Shown piece after piece: positions 59,772 to 62,978 of a DNA stretch of 64,000 nt (position 1 is the first letter of the stretch; every line of letters begins with the position of its first letter). The notes beneath the pieces were generated by a model. The model saw nothing but the letters and a program-made list of their open reading frames with translations. It did not search any database and was not told the DNA's origin. The stretch is from Acidilobus sp. 7A (GTDB lineage: Archaea; Thermoproteota; Thermoprotei_A; Sulfolobales; Acidilobaceae), in the NCBI RefSeq assembly GCF_003431325.1, contig NZ_CP010515.1, positions 1,426,001-1,490,000 on the forward strand, read 5' to 3'. The translations under genes and the position numbers were made by a program.

Positions 59772-60020
59772 ATGACAGACGTGGTGAGCTTCATTCAGCA
59801 ACTTACCCAGGAGGTCACGCTAGCTGCATGGGCCCTCTTCCTCCTAACGTGGACTATAGGCTGGACTTTGAGAGGGGCCCCGATACCCCTCTCAAGGCTT
59901 AAGAGGGCGGGCTCGGGGCTCGTTGAGGACTCCATATGGGCGGCCCTGTGGCTCGCCCTGGGCAGCACGGTGTTCACGTTCATAACGTACGTCGTCAAGG
60001 CGGTGGTAGGCTCTCCATGA
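59772..60020 (+). CDS. cedA1: Ced DNA-import pilin-like protein (CedA1)
   Basis: 82 aa with two hydrophobic helices (about residues 18-36, VTLAAWALFLLTWTIGW, and 57-78, WAALWLALGSTVFTF) joined by a short basic loop (RGAPIPLSRLKRAGSG). Size and topology match CedA1, the two-helix subunit reported to form the conjugation-like pilus of the crenarchaeal DNA-import system. Placed immediately before the channel and ATPase genes. ATG 59772 with GGGAGTGG upstream is preferred over TTG 59760. The stop overlaps the next start (ATGA). Confidence 0.75.
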   Translation: MTDVVSFIQQLTQEVTLAAWALFLLTWTIGWTLRGAPIPLSRLKRAGSGLVEDSIWAALWLALGSTVFTFITYVVKAVVGSP

Positions 60021-61405
60021 TTTCCTACAGCTACCTTTTTCAGCTCGCAGTTAAGCTGGCCCTGCTGTCTTTCTACATAGGCGTGCTCATCTATGCCCTC
60101 CCCATACCCGTGAGGGGCCTCAAGAGGTGGGGCGGGACCCTGCTCAGGGACTCCTTCCTCTCATTTGCCCTGGCGATATCGCTGACCGCAATTATGGAGT
60201 TCACGCAGGGCATAGCTGGCATGATGGGTGGCTCGTGGCAGTACTTCGACTCCTGGCTCTTTAATGGAATAGAGCTCCTCCTGAGCCTCAAGATGGCGGC
60301 CCTCTCCCTCTCATCGTTGACCTCATACGTCCCCGGGGCGACGGCGGCGAGGGCTATACTCGGCCCCCTTAACGATGCGCTCACCGCTGACCTGCTGCTG
60401 CTCTTCACGTTGGCCGCCATAGAGGCCATGGTTAGGTACGCGGGCCTCCTGATAGCGCTGATAGGGCTCGTCATGTTTGCCATGCCCTTCAGGCTGGGCA
60501 GGGAGGCCGGGGCCTGGTTCATAGCATTCGTGGTGACCTTCAGTGTAGGCCTTCAGGCAATGCCAGCCTTTGAGTCCTCTATCACCTCAGCGCCATCCGT
60601 TGGCATAAGCCCGAGCGCCGCCTCCCTGGGGCTTGGTTACCAGAGGGTCTACGTAAAGGCGGCTGACGGCAGCCCCCTGGGCGACTCCCTCCTGGAGCTC
60701 TATGCTATGGTTAACAGCAAGGCTGAGAAGGTGGCCCAGTACTGGGTCAACGCCGATGGCACGGCGTATGACCCGGAGTCGCCTCAGCCTCAGCTTGTCT
60801 CAATGCCCAGCGAGGGTCCAGTCTACGGTTACATCATCATAGACGGCGTTGAGACCCTCCTTGACCCCTACCCGTTCAGCCCAGCCAACTACAGCTTCTC
60901 CCAGGAGATAACACTGAGCTCTCCGTACATACTGTACGCCCCAGGCAACGATATAATAGTGTTCACGAATCAGCCTCAGTACGTTCACGTGGTGAGTACT
61001 CCGCGCGGGGCCCTGTTCTTTGCTAACCTAAGCTATGGAGGCATCGTTGAGGTCAGGGCCCCTGACAGCTGTAATGTAAGCATCACGGGCAACGTAAGGC
61101 CTGGCATGGGCTCCTGGACGTGGCTTGGTAACAACGGACAGGAGTGGTACTTCGTAGGTCCCCTGAACCTCACGGCGTCAGTGGCGCTGGAGGGCTGCAG
61201 GCCGCTGAACTTTACAGGGATCACGTATATGGACTACGCCACCCAGTTCTTTGGGCTAAACTACCTCTCCCCTAACCTTGTCGAGGAGCTCATAGCTTAC
61301 TACCTAGTGCTCCCGTTCATGTATGTGGCCACCTTAACTATGGTAACCTATGCCCTGGCCAGGCTGCTTGGCGGCAGGAGGGGCATAATGCCGAGGGTGG
61401 CATAA
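60017..61405 (+). CDS. cedA: Ced DNA-import membrane channel protein (CedA)
   Basis: 462 aa. About six hydrophobic helices in residues 1-205, a large non-membrane domain (about 210-430) with five N-glycosylation sequons (NYS, NLS, NVS, NLT, NFT), and a last helix (LIAYYLVLPFMYVATLTMVTYAL). This is the layout of CedA, the polytopic channel of the crenarchaeal Ced system, VirB6-like in later work. Helices 1-2 (ALLSFYIGVLIY...PIPVRGLKRWGGTLLRDS) resemble CedA1. ATG 60017 overlaps the stop of cedA1; the open frame from 59936 is antisense to the function and rejected. Confidence 0.75.
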   Translation: MISYSYLFQLAVKLALLSFYIGVLIYALPIPVRGLKRWGGTLLRDSFLSFALAISLTAIMEFTQGIAGMMGGSWQYFDSWLFNGIELLLSLKMAALSLSSLTSYVPGATAARAILGPLNDALTADLLLLFTLAAIEAMVRYAGLLIALIGLVMFAMPFRLGREAGAWFIAFVVTFSVGLQAMPAFESSITSAPSVGISPSAASLGLGYQRVYVKAADGSPLGDSLLELYAMVNSKAEKVAQYWVNADGTAYDPESPQPQLVSMPSEGPVYGYIIIDGVETLLDPYPFSPANYSFSQEITLSSPYILYAPGNDIIVFTNQPQYVHVVSTPRGALFFANLSYGGIVEVRAPDSCNVSITGNVRPGMGSWTWLGNNGQEWYFVGPLNLTASVALEGCRPLNFTGITYMDYATQFFGLNYLSPNLVEELIAYYLVLPFMYVATLTMVTYALARLLGGRRGIMPRVA

Positions 61406-61406
61406 C

Positions 61407-62978
61407 TTGAATCCATCTTACGCCTTTGACGTGTTCCTGGCGGTTATAGCGACGGCGACGGCAGCCCTGATGATAAGGAACCTCAGGGCATCAAGGGAGC
61501 TCAGGCTCTCCCTCGGCGTCAGGCACGAGAGAGGACAGCAGATGAGCGTCTACGTTGACGGCAAGAGGCTGGCGGGCATAGCCTATGTGGCTGACGACGT
61601 GCCCAGGGAGGGCTCTGACCTCCCGCTACGCCTCGCCAGGCTTGCCAGGTCATCAAGGCTTTCGGTGACGTTCATAAGCAGCATGTACTCGGTCAGCAAG
61701 AGCTCCCTGATAAAGGAGCTCGAGGAGGAGATAAGGAAGGCCGACTTCGCTTACACAGCCACTAGGCACGTCAAGTACAGGGAGAGGCTCAGCTTCCTTG
61801 AAGGGCTGTACAAGGAGGTGCTCCACTCCCAGGTGCCCTACGTTGGCAGCCTCTCCTTCATAGTCTGGGTTCCCCCTGGCGACAGGGAGGCGGAGCTCAA
61901 CGCGGAGGCATTTAAGGAGCTCGTCGAGGCCGAGGCCCAGGTGAGGCTAAGGAGGGTGAACGCGTCTGACCTGTCGCAGCTGCTTAGCGCCTCTGAGCCA
62001 ACTTGGCTCAGCGAGAGCGGCCATGCCATAATTGTCAACAGGGAGGACATAAACGATGAGAGCGGAGTTGTCATAGGTGAGGACGTCGATGGGCCTGGGA
62101 ACCTGGTCATAATGAGGTGGCCCTACGCCTTCAGGGTCCACGTCGGCGTCTTTGGCCCAACTGGGAGGGGGAAGACCGTCATGCTCTCAGGCGTGGCCGC
62201 CCAGCTCATCTCAAGGCATGCCACCCTCGGCGACCCTAAGGCTATAGTGGTCGTAGATCCAAAGGGCGACCTGGCCTCCATGCTGAAGGACGTGGCAGAC
62301 TCATATATAACGCCCTTGGCCGGGGACTGCGTCCCCATGCCTAGAACTGACGGCGTGGCCGCTAAGCTGATAGAGAGCAGCCGTGAGACCGGCGAGGGGG
62401 CATCGGTGAGCGTCTGCCCTGGCTCCCTCGACCTCAGGGGCCTAGTTGTATATGATCTGCGGGGCCTTCCCAACGAGCTGAGGAACGTCTATGGCTCCCT
62501 GCTCGTCAGCTCCATAGCCATAAGCGCCAGCGAGGGCGCGTCGGGCGGCAGGGTGGTGCTAATGCTTGACGAGGCCTGGCGCTTCAGCAGAGGCTCGGCA
62601 GTTCACATGGAGTTCGCCCTGAGGGAGGGGAGGAGCAAGGGGCTCTATGTGATATACGCTACCCAGTTGCCCTCGGACGTGGGCCGCACGGTCATAGATA
62701 ACACGGGCTACAAGTTTGTCTTCGGCGGCTTCACAAGCTACTACGTCGAGCTCGGCGCTCAGCTGGGGGTCCAGAGGCCTGAGGTGTTGAAGTCGCTGCC
62801 AGTGGGCCACGCGGTCATGATAGACGAGGTGGGCAGAACGAGGGAGGTGAGGGTCCTGGACTTCACGAAACTGCTTAAAAACCTAACCCCCTCACCTACT
62901 GGCGAGGGCGGATTAGATGGGAAAGAGCTTAAGGCAGCAGAGGGCAGGGAAGGGCTCACCGACGTTCAGGAACCCTGA
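61407..62978 (+). CDS. cedB: Ced DNA-import HerA/VirB4-type ATPase (CedB)
   Basis: 523 aa. N-terminal membrane helix (residues 6-24, AFDVFLAVIATATAALMI), a domain to about 230, then the HerA/VirB4 motor with Walker A GPTGRGKT (250-257), VVVDPKGDL, Walker B VVLMLDEAWRF and a C-terminal Gln/Arg region (YATQLPSDV). Matches CedB, the DNA-pumping ATPase of the Ced system. TTG start 2 nt after cedA. The C-terminal ~20 residues overlap rpl2 by 62 bp, an unusually long overlap. Confidence 0.8.
   Translation: MNPSYAFDVFLAVIATATAALMIRNLRASRELRLSLGVRHERGQQMSVYVDGKRLAGIAYVADDVPREGSDLPLRLARLARSSRLSVTFISSMYSVSKSSLIKELEEEIRKADFAYTATRHVKYRERLSFLEGLYKEVLHSQVPYVGSLSFIVWVPPGDREAELNAEAFKELVEAEAQVRLRRVNASDLSQLLSASEPTWLSESGHAIIVNREDINDESGVVIGEDVDGPGNLVIMRWPYAFRVHVGVFGPTGRGKTVMLSGVAAQLISRHATLGDPKAIVVVDPKGDLASMLKDVADSYITPLAGDCVPMPRTDGVAAKLIESSRETGEGASVSVCPGSLDLRGLVVYDLRGLPNELRNVYGSLLVSSIAISASEGASGGRVVLMLDEAWRFSRGSAVHMEFALREGRSKGLYVIYATQLPSDVGRTVIDNTGYKFVFGGFTSYYVELGAQLGVQRPEVLKSLPVGHAVMIDEVGRTREVRVLDFTKLLKNLTPSPTGEGGLDGKELKAAEGREGLTDVQEP
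62874..62882 (+). promoter_or_regulatory. Internal TATA box of rpl2 within cedB
   Basis: CTTAAAAAC lies inside the cedB coding region, 35-43 nt before the rpl2 ATG. It would let the ribosomal gene be expressed independently of the import operon. Confidence 0.45.

Follow-up and report, generated by a model that had tools for sequence, protein, structure and literature searches.

A pilin-like hairpin at the N-terminus of the VirB6-like channel protein CedA in a crenarchaeal Ced locus

CedA, a VirB6-like channel protein, begins with two helices that are homologous to the entire CedA1, the conjugation-type pilin of the same locus, and diverged from it long ago: the two hairpins agree in register and in their predicted two-helix fold. 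We regard the homology of the two hairpins as nearly certain. The wider picture, that of a chromosomal crenarchaeal Ced import locus with homologous hairpins in pilin and channel and a base ring made by CedA, is probably correct. The core of the hairpin homology is not new, since Beltran et al. 2023 (PMC9905601) already describe homology between the N-terminus of CedA and almost the entire CedA1, and derive one of the two from the other. A modest new lead is provided by the likeness of pilin and channel within each of the systems Ced and Ted.

The locus and its gene products

The window, i.e. the whole stretch of 64,000 nucleotides that was analysed, is carried by a single-contig genome of 1.54 Mb whose genes mark it as crenarchaeal; the features of the locus are listed in Table 1. 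CedA1 scores above the cut-off of the NCBIfam model Ced_CedA1 (NF041797; E 2.2e-36, 123.8 bits, cut-off 100) and matches the PDB pilin 8dfu_B with an E-value of 1.4e-28. The ATG of cedA overlaps the TGA of cedA1, and both reading frames were confirmed together with the peptides quoted from them in the preliminary description. CedA obtains E 9.8e-34 and 117.1 bits against Ced_CedA (NF041796), a model of 259 positions that covers only residues 1-191 of the protein and whose cut-off is 330. Because this score is below the cut-off, the curated equivalog call is inapplicable and the protein is labelled a CedA homologue; the homology is nonetheless clear. Pfam holds no model for CedA1 or for CedA. 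The AlphaFold2 model of the full protein (mean pLDDT 87.9) predicts a polytopic CedA with several long helices.

Table 1. Features of the Ced locus (positions in the window)
Feature	Position	Strand	Basis
cedA1, conjugation-type pilin, 82 aa + stop	59772-60020	+	NCBIfam Ced_CedA1, PDB 8dfu_B
Pilin hairpin, CedA1 residues 14-76 (helix, PIP-x4-KR-x-G turn, helix)	59811-59999	+	Gap-free alignment, offset 8
cedA, VirB6-like channel protein, 462 aa + stop	60017-61405	+	NCBIfam Ced_CedA, AlphaFold2
Pilin-like hairpin of CedA, residues 6-68	60032-60220	+	Profile match, model, PDB fold match
Turn region of second CedA hairpin, residues 150-178, G-x6-PFR	60464-60550	+	Marginal likeness to hairpin 1 (possibly a weak repeat)
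Beta domain of CedA, predicted to be extracellular, residues 207-391	60635-61189	+	Strands in model
HerA/VirB4-like ATPase adjoining cedA, most likely CedB	61407-62978	+	NCBIfam

The NCBIfam matches of the adjoining ATPase, to CedB (E 2.3e-8) and to CedD (E 1.7e-7), are both far under the cut-offs. A stronger CedD candidate is encoded elsewhere in the genome (E 4e-74, though again under the cut-off). Together, cedA1, cedA, the CedB-like ATPase and the distant CedD-like gene look like the Ced DNA-import set. In all 30 loci of relatives first examined, cedA1 lies directly upstream of cedA; unlike in the other Ced loci seen, the two genes are far apart in genomes G095 and G137 (loci L073/L074 and L075). 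The predicted beta domain of CedA, about 185 residues placed before the last helix, is absent from the CedA of family f4 (about 260 aa), and the other families examined in the order have a CedA of full length similar to that of the 462-residue protein. When the whole CedA model was submitted to Foldseek, beta-domain proteins dominated, and no VirB6 appeared among the 50 matches listed.

A hairpin shared by pilin and channel

The hairpin common to CedA1 and CedA extends over about 63 residues without a gap. The two single proteins are linked by BLASTP (E 4e-5), and each matches the NCBIfam model of the other, CedA1 that of Ced_CedA (8.9e-8) and CedA that of Ced_CedA1 (9.2e-5). Comparison of profiles built from relatives (28 aligned pilins, 29 aligned channels), the check proposed in the preliminary description, yields a strong match with E 8.3e-11 over 66 columns, again without gaps; restricted to the hairpins, the E-value is 4.4e-13 and the score 65.7. 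Transmembrane hairpins generally share hydrophobic helices and positive-inside turns, and the likeness might accordingly be due to chance or to features generic to basic-turn membrane hairpins. This explanation, to which we give practically no weight, is refuted by three controls. Column shuffles that preserve hydrophobicity never come near the real score (best 22.4; 0 of 100 reach it). The register is unique: in ungapped sliding, offset 8 alone is positive (+65), and the 16 other offsets tried range from -26 to -67. Finally, a genome-wide search with the pilin profile matches cedA1 and the hairpin stretch of cedA, and no other protein. The resemblance of the CedA N-terminus to the pilin, as claimed in the preliminary description, is thus borne out by the hairpin profile match, the shuffles and the unique register; the box drawn around it, 59820-60190, is correctly placed and slightly short of the hairpin limits in Table 1.

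The match is not confined to one genome. The CedA profile found CedA in 33 genomes of the same order and, in all 33, the pilin too (E about 1e-5 to 1e-12), including two genomes with unlinked genes. Against PDB sequences, the hairpin profile has a single match, 8dfu (E 2.3e-11). At the nucleotide level, comparison of the two hairpins reveals no DNA-level copy (identity 76/189, with 37% of codon third positions matching), and a recent gene copy is rejected on this ground.

The residues in common cluster at the turn and at the turn-side ends of the helices. Six positions of the CedA hairpin are invariant in every sequence aligned, L17, G22, P29, P31, K36 and D45, and all of them land, at the one fixed offset of 8, on pilin residues L25, G30, P37, P39, K/R44 and D53. 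Five of these six counterparts are invariant as well, position 44 being K or R. Other conserved pilin residues (three Trp, E52, A58, A62, G64 and F68) are absent from CedA in the profile alignment.

AlphaFold2 predicts the CedA hairpin as two helices, residues 4-27 and 33-69 (pLDDT 89.3), and the same pair is seen in the full-protein model. Among 350,542 PDB chains, the best Foldseek match of this model is the Aeropyrum pernix CedA1 pilus subunit 8dfu (probability 1.00, E 0.034; runner-up E 1.9), with an rmsd of 5.0 Å and a TM-score of 0.53-0.59. The rmsd implies that the predicted and solved hairpins open at different angles and, with the E-value of 0.034, makes the fold match weak taken alone. 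As far as the model goes, its best match being the solved pilin, the objection that the hairpins might differ in topology is not upheld.

A second hairpin of CedA resembles the first marginally (E 0.008-0.014; 0 and 3 of 100 shuffles equal the real score), and its comparison with the pilin is not significant (E 0.23). CedA is therefore not claimed to consist of tandem pilin hairpins.

Origin of the likeness and a candidate base ring

The Ted system offers a second pilin-channel pair, TedC and TedA. Its analysis is limited to eight Ted-type pairs, including the very divergent L093; the profiles exclude a ninth pair, L071, which is more distant. TedC and TedA match each other with full profiles (E 8.6e-4) and with hairpins (E 2.4e-6; 0 of 60 shuffles as good). 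In the matrix of hairpin profiles, the z-scores are 18.7 for CedA1-CedA and 12.1 for TedC-TedA, as compared to 4.0 for CedA-TedA, a weak match of the two channel hairpins, and -1.8 for CedA1-TedC, i.e. no match of the two pilins; the corresponding mean local scores are 76, 37, 30 and 27. The turn motifs differ as well, PIP-x4-KR-x-G in Ced and, in one Ted pair, VP-x4-RGY-x3-WE. A single duplication before the Ced/Ted split should have left the cross-system counterparts closer than the within-system paralogues, unless rates changed.

The preliminary description had suggested that the channel arose by fusion of a pilin-type hairpin to further helices. Its premise, that the hairpins are homologous, stands; the direction it proposed is the less favoured one, because, between Ced and Ted, the channel hairpins retain a weak match that the pilins lack, and the best match of either pilin is with the channel of its own system. 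The presence of a full pilin hairpin at the extreme N-terminus of CedA and the adjacency of the genes in the loci first examined would both fit such a fusion. Beltran et al. 2023 prefer the pilin as the later addition on the ground that monoderm systems have a pore without pili (PMC9905601), and we consider the fusion unlikely.

A somewhat better, still doubtful, prospect is that the pilin of each system has been re-derived from hairpin 1 of the cognate channel, or is held in step with it, because both proteins present one and the same turn to a common partner (the CedB/TedB ATPase, or a ring in which channel and pilin are mixed). It may be, then, and we put it forward tentatively, that pilin and channel hairpin share a system-specific turn motif and are closer to each other than to their counterparts in the other system. 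The within-system z-scores and local scores and the different turn motifs speak for this proposal, as do the tree, which groups Ced hairpins against Ted hairpins with a support of 99.5, and the slightly greater closeness, within Ced, of pilins and channels of the same family than of other pairings (rank 7 of 720). Against it, the alternative tree uniting the pilins of both systems is not rejected (p-AU 0.088), and the tree evidence against their common ancestry is suggestive only; Ted sequences are few and some of their branches very long; gene conversion is not visible at the DNA level. The TedC-TedA match withstands the removal of any single divergent Ted genome (E at most 3e-5), reaches 0.006 when all three are dropped, and weakens to E 0.1 and 0.001 when pilins and channels are taken from disjoint genomes. 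This reading refines the main explanation and does not contradict it. If true, the channel has repeatedly given rise to a new pilin, or a shared partner keeps both in step, and the base of the pilus would have a concrete docking code. Should the within-system likeness be upheld in more lineages, it would suggest that the turn is where pilin and channel have to correspond.

As for the function of the CedA hairpin, a mechanism can be proposed by analogy with bacterial VirB6. In R388, two N-proximal helices serve as the membrane anchor of the VirB6 pentamer (PMC12857230), and VirB6 bears sites for VirB2 recruitment and assembly (PMC12624023). By analogy with this pentamer and its pilin assembly sites, the hairpins of five CedA copies may assemble into a pilin-like ring within the membrane. 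CedA1-lipid subunits would be added onto this ring, which would be continuous with the lumen of the pilus; the A. pernix CedA1 homologue forms a pilus with bound lipids, according to PMC9905601. On assembly, the turn common to both proteins, PIP-x4-KR-x-G-x5-D, would pass from the cytoplasmic side to the lumen, and the CedA hairpin would serve as the docking site of the pilus. The preliminary description had likewise suggested that this hairpin may occupy the place at which a pilin subunit packs. The chances that this base-ring mechanism holds for the CedA hairpins appear to be about even. The homology makes two questions testable in Ced systems: the way in which a conjugation pilus docks on the channel in the membrane, and the order in which pilus and pore arose.

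Comparison with known systems

Bacterial VirB2/VirB6 systems resemble Ced in combining a two-helix pilin with a channel protein that has an N-terminal membrane hairpin (PMC12857230). A similar profile match of lower significance has been described for VirB2 and VirB6 of A. tumefaciens by Beltran et al. 2023 (PMC9905601). Comparing the single R388 proteins VirB2 and VirB6, a test of low power, detected no similarity; nor did the R388 proteins resemble the Ced or Ted profiles, the VirB6 match having an E-value of 0.23 with a single sequence and low power. Since the single R388 pair shows no similarity, any extension of the likeness to bacteria depends on the published profile match.

In the Ted system of Thermoproteales, as in Ced, the pilin gene (TedC) lies just upstream of the gene for the VirB6-like channel (TedA), and the hairpins of pilin and channel resemble one another. 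A published HHpred link to VirB6 exists for the Ted channel; in the passages of Beltran et al. 2023 (PMC9905601) consulted, we found no statement on a Ted pilin-channel match. Unlike Ced, Ted has another turn motif, its pilin shows no detectable sequence similarity to that of Ced, and the signal peptide of its pilin is cleaved (PMC9905601). Ted-type loci, among them L080 (2264-3766) and L072 (3079-5001), encode, downstream of the gene for the short TedA-like protein, another and longer membrane protein. Its alignment covers most of CedA, the extracellular part included, and is slightly better (E 1.9e-4) than that of the short protein (E 5.9e-4). In L071 (831-4498), pilin, short channel and long channel follow one another, each with a hairpin near the N-terminus and a turn containing Pro/Gly. 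On the minus strand of L085, a frame that by eye looks like a VirB11/GspE ATPase directly precedes a TedC-like pilin (reverse-complement positions 1-789).

The known Ced system of Sulfolobales and Aeropyrum has the genes, gene order and hairpin homology found here, the homology being stated by Beltran et al. 2023 (PMC9905601). The CedA of this locus differs from that of the f4 relatives by its length and its large predicted extracellular beta domain. In one relative (L012), CedA1 is identical, letter for letter over the aligned part, to the pilin chain of 8dfu.
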